NCBI RefSeq assembly: GCF_900129685.1
Contig: NZ_FQWM01000001.1
Span: 186,001 to 250,000, forward strand
Direction: 5' to 3'
Length of the DNA: 64,000 bases
Source of the DNA: Cognatishimia maritima
Lineage (GTDB): Bacteria; Pseudomonadota; Alphaproteobacteria; Rhodobacterales; Rhodobacteraceae
Part shown: piece by piece, positions 39,498-47,641 of the stretch
Layout: each line of letters opens with the position of its first letter
How positions within the stretch are numbered: the first letter of the stretch is position 1
Notes under the pieces: generated by a model
The model's database searches: none
The model's input: the letters and a program-made list of their open reading frames with translations, nothing else
What the model was told of the DNA's origin: nothing
Made by a program: the position numbers and the translations under genes

Positions 39498-39565
39498 GTA
39501 GGGCCGTTATAGCCCGAGGAAATTTCGCCGCAAGCGTGAAAAAGACTTGCGGCGCAATAAGCTGG

Positions 39566-40786
39566 CTAGGCCAGTAATTCATGCGCGAGCTCTAGCGCGT
39601 TGACCAATACGTCGATTTCTTCGGTCGTGTTGTACATCCCGAATGACGCGCGGCAGGTCGCGCTGACACCGAGGTGATCCATCAGTGGACCGGCACAGTG
39701 GTGCCCCGCCCTGACCGCCACGCCGCGCTTGTCGAGGATCGTGGAAATGTCATGTGCGTGCGCCGCGCCTTGTAAGGTCATGCTAAAAATCGCGGCTTTG
39801 CCGGGGGCGTTGCCCTGGATATTCAGCCAATTCAGCCCATTGAATTTCGCGGCTGCGTAGTCCCGCAATGCACTTTCGTGCGCGGCGATGTTCTGCATTC
39901 CGACATCCATCAGATACTCTAGCGCGACGCCCAAACCGATGGTCTGAACGATGCCGGGCGTACCAGCTTCGAACTTCATCGGGGGATCATTATAGATCAC
40001 CGCATCTTTGCTGACCTCTTTGATCATATCGCCGCCGCCGATAAAGGGGCGCATTTCAGCCATGCGGTCTTTTTTCACATAGGTCGCGCCAGAGCCTGAG
40101 GGACCATAAAGTTTGTGGCCCGTAATCGCATAGAAATCGCAGCCGATGTCCTGAACATTCACGGGCGCATGGACCGCGCCTTGCGAGCCATCAACCAAGA
40201 CAGGAATGCCTCGCGCATGTGCTTCTTGCGTGATCGTTTTCACATCGACCATCGTGCCCAGCACGTTGGAGCATTGTGTGATCGCGACCAACTTTGTTTT
40301 TGGCCCCATGGAGTCAATCACAGCCTGCGGATCAAGGCTGCCGTCAGCGGCCACATCGACCCATTTCAGAACCACACCCTGACGTTCGCGCAGGAAATGC
40401 CATGGTACGATATTGGCGTGGTGCTCCATGACACTCAGCAGGATTTCATCCCCTGCTTCTAACCGGGGCATGGCCCAGCCATAGGCAACCATATTGATGC
40501 CTTCGGTGGTGCCTGAATTCAGCACGATCTCATCTTCAGAGGCCGCGCCAAGAAACTTGGCAATGGTGCCGCGCACGCTTTCATATTTTTCCGTCGCGAG
40601 ATTGCTAAGGAAGTGCAAGCCGCGATGCACATTCGCATATTCGTTGGCGTAGGCATTGGTGATCGCGTCAATCACAACTTGCGGCTTTTGGGCCGAAGCC
40701 CCGTTGTCGAGATAGACCAGCGGTTTGCCATTCACTTCACGCGCCAGAATGGGAAAATCTGCGCGAATTTTTTGCACATCATACAT
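39566..40786 (-). CDS. sufS: Cysteine desulfurase SufS
   Basis: A 406-aa group II desulfurase that supplies sulfur for Fe-S assembly, working with SufE. The PLP lysine is in AITGHKLYGPSG; the catalytic cysteine in VRAGHHCAGPLMDHLG near residue 366. It is the last gene of the suf operon, 5 bases after a Yip1-like gene. SufA and SufT, often found next in this family, do not follow. SufE is encoded separately at 23665. Confidence 0.95.
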   Translation of the reverse strand: MYDVQKIRADFPILAREVNGKPLVYLDNGASAQKPQVVIDAITNAYANEYANVHRGLHFLSNLATEKYESVRGTIAKFLGAASEDEIVLNSGTTEGINMVAYGWAMPRLEAGDEILLSVMEHHANIVPWHFLRERQGVVLKWVDVAADGSLDPQAVIDSMGPKTKLVAITQCSNVLGTMVDVKTITQEAHARGIPVLVDGSQGAVHAPVNVQDIGCDFYAITGHKLYGPSGSGATYVKKDRMAEMRPFIGGGDMIKEVSKDAVIYNDPPMKFEAGTPGIVQTIGLGVALEYLMDVGMQNIAAHESALRDYAAAKFNGLNWLNIQGNAPGKAAIFSMTLQGAAHAHDISTILDKRGVAVRAGHHCAGPLMDHLGVSATCRASFGMYNTTEEIDVLVNALELAHELLA

Positions 40787-40791
40787 ATTGA

Positions 40792-41355
40792 TTACTCGAC
40801 GACACCCAGCCCGGCGACTGAGAAAAGGATGGAGAGAACGACGGTCAGGCCAAGAAACGAAAACAGCAGGTTGGCGGTGGATTTCCCAAGGGAATCAAAC
40901 CCCTGCGCCTCATTCATAAAGTTCAATAAGATCCAGATCCCGTAAAGGCTGGCGACCATCATCACGACATTGGCAAGGCTTGGGATAAAGAGCATCAAGC
41001 CAAAGCCGATGACTTGCACGGCAAAACGCATGTATTGCAACCAAGTCACCAGAACGAGGACGTCGTCAAAACTGGCGGCACCGCCGATGAATTTTCCTGC
41101 ATAGAACAGAGAGCCTGCGCCAACGATCATAATGACAAACAAAAGCGTTGCCATCGTTACTGGCGATAGGATTTCAAAGATCGGCGATTGCGTGAAAGGA
41201 AAGACCAGCGCCGTGATGAAAAACGCAATGGCATTCAAAACGGAGGCCAAAGCTAATGCGGCCCAAGTCTCTGAACGCGCCAGCTGCAGACCCAGCAGCC
41301 GACTGGCCGCTGTGCGTGGCACATAGATCGTATCAAGAAACAGTTGCTTCCACAT
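40792..41355 (-). CDS. Yip1-family membrane protein in the suf operon
   Basis: A 187-aa inner-membrane protein with about five transmembrane helices (~32-52, 65-88, ~110-128, 130-150, 165-183). The overall layout fits the Yip1 family (PF04893), of unknown bacterial function. It sits between a second Yip1-like gene and sufS in the operon, with short gaps, so it is probably expressed with the Suf proteins. No metal ligand motif is evident. Confidence 0.72.
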   Translation of the reverse strand: MWKQLFLDTIYVPRTAASRLLGLQLARSETWAALALASVLNAIAFFITALVFPFTQSPIFEILSPVTMATLLFVIMIVGAGSLFYAGKFIGGAASFDDVLVLVTWLQYMRFAVQVIGFGLMLFIPSLANVVMMVASLYGIWILLNFMNEAQGFDSLGKSTANLLFSFLGLTVVLSILFSVAGLGVVE

Positions 41356-41358
41356 GGC

Positions 41359-41841
41359 TCAGTCCGCTTTATTGCGCGCGACCGAAAGCCCCGCAATCCA
41401 GAACACAAAGAACGCCACCAGCCATATCAAGCTGACGAGGTTGTTCAAGAGACCGGGGCCAATAAAGCCCGCGACAAGCCCTTGAAACAAGATCACCGGA
41501 CTGCCCGCCAGCAAGGCCCAGAACAGTGCCATACGGGCGCGGTAGCCAGTGGTTCCGCCAAATCCTTTCAGGACCAATTGTGTGACAAAGGCGATCGCAT
41601 AAAAAAACAGAGGCGCCATAAACACCCAGCCCATAAGCGCCCCGCCAATCAGGGGCATGATGTCTGTTTCGCTCAGATGCGCCTCGCGCGACAGGCGCGG
41701 CCATTGGGCAACGAAAATCACGATACAGGCTGCCATCAGGATCGCCAAAGCGCGATCCTCTCGTGGGCCGTTGGCCTGCCGCCTTACGGCGACAGATTTA
41801 GGCCGACGGTAGGTCGCCAGAATGTCTTGCGTGATTGACAT
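41359..41841 (-). CDS. Second Yip1-like membrane protein in the suf operon
   Basis: A 160-aa inner-membrane protein with four helices (~30-48, 60-90, 103-128, 133-152). It is similar in character to the next gene, and the two may be diverged duplicates or form a heteromer. Its start overlaps the sufD stop (TGATG), giving translational coupling. Its role in Fe-S assembly is unknown; the constant coupling suggests a membrane link. Confidence 0.68.
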   Translation of the reverse strand: MSITQDILATYRRPKSVAVRRQANGPREDRALAILMAACIVIFVAQWPRLSREAHLSETDIMPLIGGALMGWVFMAPLFFYAIAFVTQLVLKGFGGTTGYRARMALFWALLAGSPVILFQGLVAGFIGPGLLNNLVSLIWLVAFFVFWIAGLSVARNKAD

Positions 41842-43127
41842 CAGCCGCGACGACGCTCCAACCAGCCTTCTAGGCGGGTTAGGATACAGTCTGCCAGCGC
41901 TTCGTTTTCAATCTCTTCCACGGCTTCCGCCAAAAACGCGAGCGTCATCAGGTCGGTCGCGATGTCCTTGGGGACACCACGCGCGCGCAGATAGAACAAC
42001 CCATCTTCGTCAATCGCACCAGAGGTCGAGCCATGCGAACAGGCGACGTCATCCGCGTAGATTTCAAGCTCAGGCTTGGCGAGGAACTGGCTGTCCTCAT
42101 CCAGCAGAAGCGATTGGCTGATCTGATAGCCGTCAGTCTTCTGAGCACCCGGTTTCACGAGGATTTTGCCCTGGAAAACACCCGTCGCCCCATTGCGCAG
42201 CACCTTTTTGAAAACCTGACGGCTTTCGCAGGCGACGGCGTCATGGGTGACAAAGACCGTATCGTCGTGGTGAAAATCGCCGTCTCCGACGCAGGCACCG
42301 GCGACATGGGCGATGGCATCGTCGCCCGTTAGTTCCAGTACACATTCATTGCGCGTCAGAACACCGTTTACGGTCAGTGTGAAGGACTTAAAGCTGCTTT
42401 CTGTACCGAGACGCCCGAAAATATGCGTCGCCGCGCGACGCTCATGATCGCGGCCCTGCGCGCGCACATGGTTGAACGCAGCTTTGTCAGCAACATACAC
42501 TTCCAGCACCTTGTTGAACCGCGCTGCGGCCGGACCATTTTCCAGCAAAGTGAGGGATGCTCCCTCCTCCAGTTTGATCACATGGTGCAAAATTGCGTCA
42601 GAGTTTTCGTCTTCGTGCTTATAGAAAAAGCTAATCGGACGAGAGACTTGGCCAGTGACGCGAATGATGATCCCATCTTCGGCAAGGGCAGTGTTCAAGG
42701 CGGCAAGCGGGCGCTGAACCGGCGTTTGGCCGTTCGCTTCTAGCTGACCATAAAGCTCTTTGGCCCAATGGATATCTTTGTTCACGATGTCAGACAGACA
42801 TTCGATTGTCAGCCCTTCGCCCTCAAGATCGTCGGATTGATCGGCATCAAAAATGCCATCGACAAAGACAACCTTTAGGCGGTCGATATCGTCAAACATC
42901 GGCGCTTCACCATGTTCAAATGGTGCCGCAGGAATGACATCTTGCGCGGTCAGAGTGTCCGGACGGGTGTATTTCCAATATTCGTCACGACGGTGTGGCA
43001 AACCATTTTCGATAACGCGCGCCATGGCGGCGTCGCGGATCGCGGTGATCCACACTGCCCCGGCTGGGACGGAAATCCCGTCCAGCAGCGCAGCTGTCGC
43101 TTCCTGTTTCTGTTGCAAAAAGCCCAT
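41841..43127 (-). CDS. sufD: Fe-S assembly scaffold protein SufD
   Basis: A 428-aa beta-helix protein, partner of SufB in the SufBC2D complex. The N-terminal helical part (RRDEYWKYTRPDTL) and the core (GACVGDGDFHHDDTVFVTHDA; SQFLAKPELEIYADDVACSHG) match SufD, including the conserved His in the C-terminal segment CSHGSTSGAIDEDGLFYL. Its ATG overlaps the sufC stop (TAATG). The stop overlaps a Yip1-like gene. Confidence 0.93.
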   Translation of the reverse strand: MGFLQQKQEATAALLDGISVPAGAVWITAIRDAAMARVIENGLPHRRDEYWKYTRPDTLTAQDVIPAAPFEHGEAPMFDDIDRLKVVFVDGIFDADQSDDLEGEGLTIECLSDIVNKDIHWAKELYGQLEANGQTPVQRPLAALNTALAEDGIIIRVTGQVSRPISFFYKHEDENSDAILHHVIKLEEGASLTLLENGPAAARFNKVLEVYVADKAAFNHVRAQGRDHERRAATHIFGRLGTESSFKSFTLTVNGVLTRNECVLELTGDDAIAHVAGACVGDGDFHHDDTVFVTHDAVACESRQVFKKVLRNGATGVFQGKILVKPGAQKTDGYQISQSLLLDEDSQFLAKPELEIYADDVACSHGSTSGAIDEDGLFYLRARGVPKDIATDLMTLAFLAEAVEEIENEALADCILTRLEGWLERRRG

Positions 43128-43882
43128 TACGCCATCTCCGCCAAGATGTCTGCGTAGCCGTTGTTTTCGACTTCCAGGGCCAGTTCTGGGCCACCGGTTT
43201 TCACAATACGACCGTCTGCCATAATGTGCACAACGTCTGGTTTGATGTGATCCAGCAGACGTTGGTAGTGGGTGATCACTAGGAAGCCACGGCCTGCGTC
43301 GCGCAGCGCGTTCACGCCCTCTGACACCAGTTTCATGGCATCGACGTCCAGACCAGAGTCCGTTTCGTCAAGGATGCACATCTTTGGTTCCAGCATCGCC
43401 ATCTGCAGAATTTCGTTGCGTTTCTTTTCACCGCCAGAGAAGCCAACGTTGACCGGGCGTTTCAGCATATCGGCGTCGATCTTCAGCGTTTTTGCCTTGG
43501 CGCGGATCACTTTCAGGAAGTCCGCAGCAGACATTTCTTCTTCGCCACGCGCCTTGCGTTGCGCGTTCACGGCCGTGCGCAGGAAGGTCATGTTGCCAAC
43601 GCCGGGAATTTCCACCGGGTATTGGAACGCAAGGAAAAGCCCCAGCGCCGCACGCTCTTCGGCTTCGAGTTCCAGCAGGTCTTCGCCACCCAAAGTCGCC
43701 GAACCCTCTGTTACTTCATAGCCATCGCGACCAGACAGGACGTAAGACAATGTCGATTTGCCGGAACCGTTTGGCCCCATGATCGCATGCACTTTGCCAG
43801 CTCCGACCGTCAGGTCAACGCCCTTCAGGATTTGCTTATCTTCGTCTTCAAGTTTGACCTTCAGGCCTTTGATTTCCAACAT
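43127..43882 (-). CDS. sufC: Fe-S assembly ATPase SufC
   Basis: A 251-aa ABC-type ATPase that drives the SufBC2D scaffold. Walker A is GPNGSGKST; the ABC signature is FSGGEKKRNEI; Walker B and the catalytic Glu are in CILDETDSGLD; the H-loop His is in VITHYQRLL. The ATG at 43882 follows GAGGAAAATAAC. An in-frame ATG at 43918 overlaps the previous small gene's stop but would add 12 non-conserved residues. Confidence 0.95.
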   Translation of the reverse strand: MLEIKGLKVKLEDEDKQILKGVDLTVGAGKVHAIMGPNGSGKSTLSYVLSGRDGYEVTEGSATLGGEDLLELEAEERAALGLFLAFQYPVEIPGVGNMTFLRTAVNAQRKARGEEEMSAADFLKVIRAKAKTLKIDADMLKRPVNVGFSGGEKKRNEILQMAMLEPKMCILDETDSGLDVDAMKLVSEGVNALRDAGRGFLVITHYQRLLDHIKPDVVHIMADGRIVKTGGPELALEVENNGYADILAEMA

Positions 43883-43914: not shown

Positions 43915-44085
43915 TCATCTCTTGATTAGTATTTGGGCCACAACAGACCCTAGAAACCCGCTGACGAAACTGGTCGTCAGCACTTGTGTATTCGTTAGCA
44001 TCGGGGCGATCTGGCTGATCACGAAAGCAAAACCGGCACAGAAAAGACCGGTCGTGCAGGCTGCCATGATCATCGCCCGAACCAT
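43915..44085 (-). CDS. Small membrane protein (56 aa) in the suf operon
   Basis: A 56-aa protein, [20 protein letters not shown] at the start, with two hydrophobic stretches (~5-27 and ~36-53) and a basic C-terminus (LIKR). Its ATG overlaps the ybjQ stop (TGATG), and its stop lies 33 bases before the sufC start. This positioning and the membrane-like composition support it as a real gene. No family is recognised. It has two Cys within the first helix. Confidence 0.65.
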   Translation of the reverse strand: MVRAMIMAACTTGLFCAGFAFVISQIAPMLTNTQVLTTSFVSGFLGSVVAQILIKR

Positions 44086-44399
44086 CAGCCCAGCACCACC
44101 GCTGTGCCAGAGGCCGAGACCATCAGCATGGATTGACCGACCACTTCGTAGTCCAAATCCACGCCGACAACCGCATTTGCCCCTTTGGACAGCGCACGTT
44201 CTTCCAACTCACGCAGAGCGGTGTCGCGCGCATCCTGCAGCTTGCTTTCGTAAGCCCCTGAACGCCCGCCGACTATATCGGTGATCGAGGCAAAGACATC
44301 GCGCACAACGTTTGCGCCCATTATGGCCTCGCCCACGACAATGCCGCGGTATTCGGTGATTTTACGTCCTTCGACGGAATTGGTGGTGGTGATAATCAT
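44085..44399 (-). CDS. YbjQ family protein (UPF0145)
   Basis: A 104-aa cytosolic protein of the YbjQ/UPF0145 'heavy-metal-binding' family, usually pentameric. [20 protein letters not shown] is the typical start; [16 protein letters not shown] matches the conserved second half. The ATG at 44399 follows GGAAGCTGAG, one base after the previous stop. It is placed between two tiny membrane proteins inside the suf operon, an unusual context that hints at a role in metal or Fe-S handling. Confidence 0.88.
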
Positions 44400-44400
44400 C

Positions 44401-44601
44401 TCAGCTTCCAATCCAATTGATAAACATCATAATGGCCATACAGACCGCCCCAACCAGCGCGGAGGTTACAAAGACCGATCCGCCGATCAGACCCTCGCTA
44501 TTGCCTTTACGTTTGCGAATGCTCAGGCCGATGAGGCAACCGATGGTCATCCCGACGCCTACCCCAAGGGATTGCTGCATAAGTTGCTGAATGGTTTCCA
44601 T
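44401..44601 (-). CDS. Small membrane protein (66 aa) in the suf operon
   Basis: A 66-aa protein with two predicted helices (~12-28, [16 protein letters not shown], and ~40-62, [20 protein letters not shown]) joined by a very basic loop RKRKGN. Its ATG overlaps the sufB stop (TAATG), and ybjQ begins one base after its stop. No family is recognised. The coupling suggests it is made in step with SufB. Confidence 0.7.
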
Positions 44602-46124
44602 TAACCCACAGATCCCTCAAGGCTAATTGCAACCAATTGCTGCGCCTCCATGGCGAATTCCATCGGCAGCGCCTGCAGCACTTCCTTGGCGAAACCGTTC
44701 ACGATCAGGGCAACAGCCTCTTCTTCGTCCATGCCACGCTGGCGGCAGTAGAACATTTGCTCGTCATCCACCTTGGATGTCGTTGCTTCGTGCTCCACAC
44801 GCGAGCTATTGTTCTTCACCTCAATATACGGAACGGTGTGCGCTCCGCATTTATCGCCAATCAGCAAACTGTCACATTGCGTGTAATTGCGTGAATTCTT
44901 GGCTTTCGGGTGCATCGATACCAGACCACGGTAGGTGTTCTGCGCCACACCAGCGGAGATGCCTTTCGACACAATGCGCGACTTGGTGTTTTTGCCCAAG
45001 TGGATCATCTTTGTACCAGTATCGGCCTGCTGGTGGTTGTTGGCGATGGCGATGGAATAGAACTCGCCTTGGCTGTCATCCCCACGCAGGATGCAGGATG
45101 GGTATTTCCACGTCACGGCAGAACCGGTTTCAACCTGTGTCCACATCACCTTCGCGCGGTCGCCCCGGCAATCGGCGCGTTTGGTCACGAAGTTATAGAT
45201 GCCGCCTTTGCCGTTTTCATCACCGGGGAACCAGTTTTGAACGGTGGAGTATTTCACCTCTGCATCTTCTTCGATGATGATTTCAACCACGGCCGCGTGC
45301 AGCTGCGCTGTGTCGCGTTGTGGTGCAGTGCAACCCTCTAAGTAACTGACATAGCTGCCTTTATCGGCGATGATCAATGTGCGTTCGAACTGGCCAGTGT
45401 TTTCTGCATTGATGCGGAAATAGGTCGACAGCTCCATCGGGCAGCGCACACCCGGTGGGATGTAAACGAAAGACCCGTCAGAGAAGACGGCGCTGTTCAG
45501 CGTGGCATAGAAGTTGTCAGAGACCGGCACGACCGACCCAAGGTATTTCTTGACCAGCTCTGGGTGCTCTTTGATGGCTTCGCTGATCGAGCAGAAGATC
45601 ACGCCAGCCTTTTTCAGTTCGGCTTGGAAGGTTGTGCCAACAGAGACAGAGTCAAATACCGCATCAACGGCCACCTTGCGGCCTTCGGCTGGTGCGTCCT
45701 CGGCGCCTTCGACGCCAGCCAAAATCATCTGTTCTTTCAATGGGATGCCCAGTTTCTGGTAGGTTTCCAACAGCTTTGGGTCAACGTCATCCAGCGACTT
45801 GGGCTTTTCTTCCATGCTCTTTGGACGGGCGTAGTAATACTGGTCCTGAAAGTCGATCTCTGGATAGTTGACCATCGCCCACTTGGGTTCTTCCTTGGTC
45901 AGCCAACGCTTGAACGCTTCCAGCCGCCAATCGGTCATCCATTCAGGTTCTTCATTCTTTTCAGAAATCAGACGCACGATGTCTTCGTTCAGACCTTTCG
46001 GAGCGTACTCCATCTCGATCTCGGTTTCCCAACCGTATTTGTACTTGCCACCGACTTCACGAACCGCGTCGACCGTCTCCTGATCAACGCCTTCTTTGAC
46101 GTCTGTGTGTTCCATCGTGGCCAT
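44601..46124 (-). CDS. sufB: Fe-S assembly scaffold protein SufB
   Basis: A 507-aa scaffold on which the nascent cluster forms. The N-terminal region ([12 protein letters not shown]) and beta-helix core ([26 protein letters not shown]-like [22 protein letters not shown]) match SufB, and the C-terminus has [21 protein letters not shown] with the conserved Glu/His/Cys. It lies 15 bases after the nifS-like gene. A tiny membrane protein gene overlaps its stop. Confidence 0.95.
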
Positions 46125-46139
46125 CTGCGTCTCCTACTC

Positions 46140-47180
46140 TCACGCCGCTTTGGCGCGGTATTTTTCCAATTGGGTCAGCCACTTATTGGCGAAACCCAAA
46201 ACCTGTTCTTCTGTGTTCTCTGGGCCAAGACTGACCCGTATCGCGCTGGACGCCACGGTGGCGTCATATCCCATAGCCGTCAAAACGGCGCTTGCTTTGA
46301 CCTTGCCTGACGAGCAGGCAGAGCCTGCCGAAATGGCGTAGCCAGCCAGATCCATTTGCATCACTTGCGTTTCGCCTTTCCAGCCGGGAACCGCAAGGCA
46401 AGAAGTGTTGGGCAGACGGTCCGCATCCTTCCCGATAAAGATGGTGTCCGGTGCCGCGTCGGCAAGGGTGGTTTCCAACAAATCGCGTAGCCGTTTGACC
46501 GCATCCCAAACGCCCGCGTCCAGGTCGCGCACTGCTGCTGTGGCAGCGGCGGCAAACCCCGCGGCACCGATGATGTTTTCGGTGCCCGCGCGGCGTCCCA
46601 TCTCTTGCCCGCCGCCCTTGAGCCGCGCCTGCACATCCGTGCCGCGTTTTACGACCAATGCCCCAATGCCTTTAGGCCCACCGAGTTTGTGGGCAGAAAC
46701 AATCGCCATATCACAACCCAGCCAGTTGAAGGCAATCGGCAGTTTCCCAAAGGCCTGTGTCGCATCGCAAAGCGCGAGGCCCTGCGGCAGTTTTTGCACG
46801 ATCCCGGTTTCGGAATTGGCAATCTGCAAAGTTGCTTTGGCAGGGTCATCAACAGTTACACTGCCATCAGCGGCTGTTGGTATTTCATTTTCAATCCAAG
46901 CTCTTACCGCGTCATGTTCAACTGACGATCCGGAAAAGCCACGCCCTTCCATGGCCAAAGCGGCCGCCTCCGTGGCGCTAGAGGTGAAGATCACATCCGC
47001 CCCATCCGCCCCAAATGCTGAGGCAACATCCGCGCGGGCTTTTTCGAGCAAAGATTTCGCCTTACGCCCTTCTGCATGCACAGAAGACGGATTGCCGACA
47101 ACATCCATCGCGGCAATCATCGCCTCGCGCGCCTCCGGGCGCAGCGGCGTTGTAGCGTTATGATCAAGGTAGGCTCTCAC
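46140..47180 (-). CDS. IscS/NifS-like cysteine desulfurase
   Basis: A 346-aa group I cysteine desulfurase. The PLP lysine is in VSAHKLGGPKGIGA, and the catalytic cysteine in ISAGSACSSGKVKASAVL. YLDHNATTPLRPEAR is the family start. GTG at 47180 overlaps the iscR stop (GTGA), preferred over a TTG six bases upstream. So the operon has two desulfurases (this and SufS). It is somewhat shorter than IscS, and the lack of IscU/HscAB nearby means it probably feeds Suf or another sulfur acceptor. Confidence 0.9.
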   Translation of the reverse strand: MRAYLDHNATTPLRPEAREAMIAAMDVVGNPSSVHAEGRKAKSLLEKARADVASAFGADGADVIFTSSATEAAALAMEGRGFSGSSVEHDAVRAWIENEIPTAADGSVTVDDPAKATLQIANSETGIVQKLPQGLALCDATQAFGKLPIAFNWLGCDMAIVSAHKLGGPKGIGALVVKRGTDVQARLKGGGQEMGRRAGTENIIGAAGFAAAATAAVRDLDAGVWDAVKRLRDLLETTLADAAPDTIFIGKDADRLPNTSCLAVPGWKGETQVMQMDLAGYAISAGSACSSGKVKASAVLTAMGYDATVASSAIRVSLGPENTEEQVLGFANKWLTQLEKYRAKAA

Positions 47181-47641
47181 TCGCAATCATCCACCACGGA
47201 AAACAACGTTGGCACTGCTGGGCACGGCGCGAGGCCGTTTTGCACCACATCGGACAGGCGCGTCTGATGCAAAAACACGTAAACATGCGCAGACAGGCCT
47301 TCCCAAAGACGGTTGGCCATCGACTGCGCCCGAGAGCCAGACTGCGCACCAGACGCGCCTGCCCCAGTGTGCAATGCGGAAACGGTTTCATCGACCGCCG
47401 ACAGGATGTCGACAATTCGAATCTCGGCTGTGGGTCGTGCCAACCGATAGCCGCCGCCGGGGCCGCGTACCGATTCAACAAGTTCCGCACGGCGGAGCTT
47501 TACGAACAACTGCTCAAGATAAGCGAGCGAAATATCCTGACGCGTTGAAATTTCGGACAAAGTCACAAGCTTTTCAGTCGGTTGCAGGGCGATATCTGCA
47601 AGGGCAACCACCGCATAGCGGCCTTTGGTCGAAAGTTTCAT
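47177..47641 (-). CDS. iscR: Rrf2 family regulator IscR (Rhodobacter type, without cluster cysteines)
   Basis: A 154-aa winged-helix repressor heading the isc-suf operon. MKLSTKGRYAVVALADIALQ, ISLAYLEQLFVKLR and VRGPGGGYRLAR are clear Rrf2 hallmarks. In E. coli three Cys (92, 98, 104) bind [2Fe-2S]; here the matching stretch ALHTGAGASGAQSGSRAQSM has none. Cysteines occur only at 140 and 153 near the C-terminus. R. sphaeroides IscR is known to lack these cysteines while still binding a cluster. The ATG at 47641 has GGGAGA upstream. Two palindromes precede it. Confidence 0.92.
   Translation of the reverse strand: MKLSTKGRYAVVALADIALQPTEKLVTLSEISTRQDISLAYLEQLFVKLRRAELVESVRGPGGGYRLARPTAEIRIVDILSAVDETVSALHTGAGASGAQSGSRAQSMANRLWEGLSAHVYVFLHQTRLSDVVQNGLAPCPAVPTLFSVVDDCE

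Follow-up and report, generated by a model that had tools for sequence, protein, structure and literature searches.

The window, which is the whole 64,000-nucleotide stretch of DNA analysed here, carries the SUF genes sufB, sufC, sufD and sufS, all present and in order. On the minus strand the genes follow one another as sufB, p66, YbjQ, p56, sufC, sufD, two hydrophobic proteins and sufS. A desulfurase and a regulator lie upstream of sufB. The interval between sufB and sufC is called the slot. The features are listed below, with profile scores given against the cut-off of the model.

47177..47641, minus strand: IscR-like Rrf2 regulator preceding the desulfurase (PF02082, 119.6 bits against 30)
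46140..47186, minus strand: IscS/NifS-type cysteine desulfurase, upstream of sufB (PF00266, 137.5 bits against 21.5; below the cut-off of every NCBIfam model)
44601..46124, minus strand: sufB, upstream edge of the slot (TIGR01980, 625.5 bits against 346.4)
44401..44601, minus strand: p66, predicted two-helix membrane protein of 66 aa, glycine-zipper-like GxxxGxxxGxxxG in the first helix (from open reading frame, homologues and model)
44085..44399, minus strand: YbjQ-family protein of 104 aa (PF01906, 136.1 bits against 23)
43915..44085, minus strand: p56, predicted two-helix membrane protein of 56 aa, motifs TGxFCAxFA and SGFLGS (from open reading frame, homologues and model)
43127..43882 (alternative upstream start 43918), minus strand: sufC, downstream edge of the slot (TIGR01978, 353.3 bits against 212.8)
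41841..43127, minus strand: sufD (SUFBD_core PF01458, 219.3 bits against 27; TIGR01981, 211, slightly below its cut-off of 222)
41359..41841, minus strand: hydrophobic protein of 160 aa in the sufD-sufS interval, belonging to a family-specific insertion (below every Pfam cut-off)
40792..41355, minus strand: Yip1-domain membrane protein of 187 aa in the sufD-sufS interval (PF04893, 35.4 bits against 28.6)
39566..40786, minus strand: sufS cysteine desulfurase (TIGR01979, 535.2 bits against 475.1)

The regulator scored 121.6 against 73.3 with the Rrf2 superfamily model, and its score with the IscR equivalog, 146.8, was below the cut-off of 207.55. It apparently lacks the classical Cys ligands of the IscR triad. 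According to PMC6956336, the IscR of Rhodobacter sphaeroides has a unique Fe-S ligation scheme. No RNA element was matched by Rfam at the gathering score between positions 39500 and 47800.

An earlier note on this DNA had described hydrophobic proteins of 66 and 56 aa flanking YbjQ between sufB and sufC, joined by TAATG, TGAGATG and TGATG. Both the proteins and the junctions were found again in the sequence. The start of p66 lies in TAATG, where the final base of the sufB stop codon doubles as the first base of the p66 ATG. The ATG of YbjQ at 44399 stands one base past the p66 stop (TGAGATG); the list of open reading frames also holds an alternative start for YbjQ, a TTG at 44411. The p56 frame runs from the ATG within TGATG at 44085 to position 43915, and its stop overlaps an in-frame upstream ATG of sufC at 43918 (ATGA). 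This layout favours coupled translation, in line with the proposed coupling to SufB synthesis. TIGR01978 matches the longer sufC frame from residue 14 onwards, this residue being the Met at 43882, and GAGGAA lies immediately upstream of this codon. For these two reasons sufC probably starts at 43882 rather than 43918, leaving a spacer of 32 nt after p56.

The isc-suf operon of R. sphaeroides has the same gene order, is co-transcribed and carries one hypothetical gene, RSP_0439, at the same place between sufB and sufC. RSP_0439 was linked to sufB by RT-PCR, and in an iscR mutant its expression shifted in the same way as that of sufB and sufC, with log2 values of 0.67, 0.67 and 0.68 (PMC4618611). 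A promoter inside iscS gives transcripts across the suf genes, and the two proteins after sufD are termed Yip1 family (PMC6956336). By analogy with this operon, the slot genes in the genus of the window are probably co-transcribed with suf. The available text of both papers notes variation in unannotated frames and mentions neither a variable slot nor YbjQ nor the small membrane families (PMC4618611, PMC6956336). The earlier note, which knew of no description of the module, was largely right on this point. No description of the slot was found in the literature searched on YbjQ, Rhodobacter isc-suf, variable suf loci and small membrane proteins, and no paper containing both 'SufB' and 'YbjQ' was found in the literature searched.

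Two small membrane proteins beside YbjQ

Nine genomes of the genus were compared. YbjQ was present in all nine, p66 in seven and p56 in eight, and p66 started at −1 relative to the sufB stop in all seven genomes that have it. The median pN/pS was 0.34 for p66 (21 pairs), 0.29 for p56 (28 pairs) and 0.10 for YbjQ (36 pairs); the flanking SufB and SufC gave 0.026 (36 pairs) and 0.070 (28 pairs). Because the median pS was approximately 0.6, these ratios show constraint and leave its exact size unfixed. When p66 and p56 were read in both shifted frames, pN/pS rose to 1.2–1.8. The true frames were free of stops, and the +1 frames contained 2–8 stops each. The pN/pS values and the frame controls rule out chance open reading frames. 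The data indicate that p66 and p56 are genuine proteins under purifying selection in the genus, and the treatment of the small frames as proteins in the earlier note thus held.

Two small membrane families are named here, both of them absent from Pfam and NCBIfam, where p66 and p56 matched no family above cut-off. Across 14 homologues of p66, the residues G13, G17, G21, G33, S42 and T46 are invariant, and G25 is kept in at least 90%. The model of p66 (pLDDT 84) has helices at residues 2–31 and 43–65. A glycine zipper is defined as a GxxxGxxxG repeat within a transmembrane helix, and such a repeat falls inside the predicted helix 2–31 of p66. Across 24 homologues of p56, the invariant residues are T12, G13, F15, C16, F19, S42, G43, F44 and G46; its model (pLDDT 74) has helices at residues 2–26 and 32–55. 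The fold search with p66 returned no significant match, and neither p66 nor p56 had a significant sequence relative in the PDB.

The sufB-sufC junction across Rhodobacteraceae

The slot was examined in 118 Rhodobacteraceae loci, which comprised 8 congeners and 110 of the 180 SufB-bearing family genomes, chosen mainly for close similarity of their SufB. Sixteen of the 118 gaps stop at a sequence end. In the 104 loci where both genes are visible, the sufB-sufC gap had a median of 952 bp, ranged from 21 to 3004 bp and exceeded 300 bp in 89. In other families of the class, for which 47 of the 114 matching genomes were examined, the median was 33 bp and only 3 of 47 loci exceeded 300 bp; YbjQ, p66 and p56 were absent from all 47 by tblastn. 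The sufC-sufD gap was at most 50 bp in all 86 Rhodobacteraceae loci, and some members of the family are nearly gapless at sufB-sufC though sufB, sufC and sufD are present. Core cofactor operons are usually regarded as fixed; here one junction is hypervariable and the next is closed. The sufD-sufS gap is also enlarged in Rhodobacteraceae, at 480 bp or more in 49 of 49 loci (median 1068); none of the 20 loci from other families exceeds 74 bp. The suf operon of Rhodobacteraceae therefore has two additions: a membrane pair that is nearly constant, and the slot, which is hypervariable.

The contents of the slot were called with a simple open reading frame script, so that starts are uncertain. Clusters that ran antisense or out of frame were treated as shadows of the sense genes and not counted. 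Among the 118 loci, YbjQ occurred in 74, p56 in 27, the family F5 in 24, F4 and F6 in 22 each, p66 in 15 and a cupin in 7, and many further small membrane families were present. The p66 count is an undercount; tblastn adds loci L037, L079 and L109. Recurrent cargo families are oriented in the sense direction of suf. With one representative per family, Pfam identified F6 as FkbM methyltransferase-like, F14 as cupin, F22 as polysaccharide pyruvyl-transferase-like and F28 as DMT-type; the representatives of F4 and F5 fell below every Pfam cut-off. F6 and the methyltransferase-looking F5 are perhaps surface-glycan enzymes (loci L010–L127). The earlier picture of a module that is a set part of the suf operon is not sustained: the slot is hypervariable, many loci hold other cargo, and some have almost no gap. 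The results showed that the sufB-sufC junction of Rhodobacteraceae is a slot with changing accessory genes that is absent in the other families sampled.

The slot also has gene families that are locked to it. In a profile search of 189 family genomes, p56 gave 28 matches in 27 genomes, of which 27 lay on the strand of SufB and no more than 6 kb downstream of it; the remaining match (genome G190) was found between SufB and SufC in locus L241. In addition, p56 was searched with two patterns in one genome per species of 84,980 species. All 63 named loci were sense-oriented and sat between sufB and sufC, and YbjQ was also found in 42 of them, counted in the DNA fetched. We assigned these 63 loci to Rhodobacteraceae by the genus names in their records. 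The patterns were drawn from a close subset, so the scan leaves room for distant relatives elsewhere. Every p56 match found is in the slot, and p56 is locked to it. For p66 there were 15 matches. Thirteen lay beside SufB and another was confirmed in L240; the last, a weak match (E 4e-4), stood at a locus without suf genes and is taken as chance. Among the matches with a listed SufB position, YbjQ lay beside SufB in 86 cases and elsewhere in 32, F4 beside SufB in 38 of 44 and F5 in 37 of 49; these tallies leave out matches with an unlisted SufB position (YbjQ 21, F5 11, F4 6, p66 2 and p56 1). Seventeen of the far YbjQ loci were fetched. Fourteen had 31–50% identity to the window YbjQ by tblastn and three had no tblastn match, which indicates that these are other paralogues.

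Turnover was measured on a SufBCD tree covering 92 loci by comparing the changes of presence with the mean of 200 shuffles. F4 changed 16 times against 15.8 in the shuffles and F6 14 times against 14.0; both are scattered at random over the tree. F5 is weakly ordered by the tree (17 against 19.9; 13 of 200 shuffles as low). The other three families were p56 with 12 changes against 15.0 (1 of 200 as low), YbjQ with 21 against 29.2 (0 of 200) and p66 with 5 against 9.6 (0 of 200), and they are partly inherited yet often changing. Since p66, YbjQ and p56 fit the tree better than chance, and F5 does so weakly, inheritance accounts for a large part of the filling. The distance correlation with SufB was 0.48 for YbjQ, against 0.56–0.66 for SufC windows of equal length (53 loci). 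The evidence of exchange by recombination is indirect, coming from one genome per species and from a tree of operon genes that possibly recombine themselves.

The GC content of the cargo is near that of SufB, which fits circulation inside the family, and foreign DNA was ruled out by composition. No recombinase, integrase or transposase occurred among 19 different cargo proteins, which are part of the cargo, in a Pfam scan. No relatives of p56 were found in viral contigs by pattern scan, and neither p56 nor p66 of the window was found on plasmids. An origin from a mobile element, phage or plasmid is unsupported by these scans. An anti-phage defence island was also considered and dropped: among 10 slot proteins scanned, F5 gave one weak partial match to mad2 (E 5.5e-5), and nothing else matched at E 0.01. 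A single in-frame stop was seen in F4 in G200:C81, G111:C15 and G218:C80, and these copies are perhaps decaying slot genes.

Variable accessory-gene hotspots have conserved flanks, changing cargo and a shared pool of cargo families. The slot is alike in all three respects. It differs in lying inside a core cofactor operon, in the sense orientation of its recurrent cargo, and in the lack of an integrase or transposase among the cargo proteins scanned.

Readings of the p66-YbjQ-p56 filling

The window YbjQ covers positions 1–103 of the 103 of the PF01906 profile, and by this full-length match it belongs to the YbjQ / UPF0145 / DUF74 family. Its relatives in the PDB are 1vr4, 2gtc and 1y2i, with 5 chains each, and residues 1–101 match 1vr4 and 2gtc, both Bacillus cereus proteins, at 134 bits. 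Solved members of the family are pentamers (PMC2954204, PMC4092069). The surroundings of YbjQ differ outside Rhodobacteraceae, where 0 of 27 loci had suf genes in the flanks and 26 of 27 lacked a same-strand small membrane frame within 80 nt. YbjQ thus needs no small membrane partners in general, a result that slightly lowered our confidence in the explanation preferred below. In the slot, 19 of the 74 YbjQ genes had no sense gene called between sufB and YbjQ, and 40 of the other 55 were preceded by a protein that is predicted to be in the membrane and is no longer than 150 aa. A small membrane neighbour is a trait of the slot and not of YbjQ. A general rule of YbjQ with a small membrane partner was dropped, with one case among the 27 outside loci. 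A strong pairing of p56 with YbjQ was dropped as well, because adjacency was too little above chance (16 of 22 against 12.5 expected); for p66 and YbjQ it was 12 of 15 against 9.8.

We believe that the best explanation is an exchangeable slot in the isc-suf operon whose expression rides on iron and stress, with p66-YbjQ-p56 as one membrane-associated filling; we put its probability at roughly 0.5. What was observed is the slot itself and that the other families sampled lack it, together with the locked families, the turnover of the filling and the purifying selection on the small frames. The recurrent sense-strand cargo is probably co-transcribed with suf, so that its expression would follow iron and oxidative stress. 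The fillings swap quickly, and homologous recombination within the conserved flanks, sufB and sufC, is the most likely route. The hairpins of p66 and p56 most likely pack by their glycine and small-residue faces into small inner-membrane oligomers that hold a YbjQ pentamer at the membrane. We infer that p66-YbjQ-p56 would serve a need at times of stress that accompanies Fe-S repair.

The main rival, which we regard as possible if rather improbable, is the anchor already raised in the earlier note: p66, p56 and YbjQ would be direct partners of SUF and hold SufBC2D at the inner membrane, so that clusters form close to membrane-bound Fe-S enzymes. It gains from the position of all p56 and all but one weak p66 match at sufB-sufC, from the family-specific hydrophobic pair at sufD-sufS in the same operon, and from junctions that favour coupled translation. 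However, turnover is high, the slot genes are missing in many genera that have sufBCD, and even within the genus p66 is absent from two of nine members and p56 from one. Unrelated enzymes (FkbM methyltransferase, cupin, pyruvyl-transferase-like) share the slot, and for this reason a common contact with SufBCD fails to explain it. Such variety of cargo, together with the seemingly random scatter of F4 and F6 over the tree, would suit pure hitch-hiking, in which cargo gains only operon expression or persists by recombination, unrelated to Fe-S or stress. The F4 copies with an in-frame stop in G200, G111 and G218 point the same way, as cargo may decay. We consider hitch-hiking unlikely, because p66, p56 and YbjQ are under clear purifying selection in the genus, families recur on the sense strand, and YbjQ fills 74 of the 118 loci.

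The earlier note had also suggested that the module feeds iron. Here YbjQ would be a heavy-metal or iron donor to SufBCD through a membrane channel of p66 and p56. Pfam labels the family 'putative heavy-metal-binding', and acidic residues conserved among the slot proteins, such as D81, D83 and E85, could bind hard ions. The family name, however, is itself a prediction. Soft-metal ligands in the form of conserved Cys or His were not found in slot YbjQ: Cys occurs in 3 of 74, His in 35 of 74 and neither in 38 of 74, and in 73 aligned slot proteins no position conserved in 95% holds Cys or His. In addition, none of the invariant residues of p66 is Cys, His, Asp or Glu, and the one invariant Cys of p56 lies in a helix. 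The idea of iron feeding is therefore weak, and we judge it highly improbable.

The exchangeable slot and the membrane pair make a link between Fe-S assembly and the membrane in Rhodobacteraceae testable. Because the operon holds a family-specific hydrophobic pair at sufD-sufS, SUF in this family may be membrane-linked. A bolder and doubtful proposal is that SUF works at the inner membrane, where the Yip1-type pair, swappable hairpin adaptors and a YbjQ ring would form a platform for SufBC2D, and adaptor swaps would tune the site and timing of cluster assembly. If true, the platform would be a new layer of Fe-S assembly and, to our knowledge, the first known role for the YbjQ family.

The slot is also a handle on the YbjQ family, which is unsettled. 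Thiamin phosphate synthase activity presumably belongs to YjbQ, a different family. PMC7084401 credits YbjQ with this activity and seems to confuse the two. A second, divergent YbjQ (31–34% identity) adjoins a 'CGALAxEI' protein in L243, L244, L245, L248, L251, L253 and L258. Frames near it in L244 and L258 look by motif like a corrinoid protein. A hydrophobic frame of 71–83 aa stands directly before YbjQ in two far family loci, L244 and L250. The YbjQ frames of L255 and L256 (approximately 50% identity) carry an N-terminal CxxC...CxxC that is zinc-ribbon-like.
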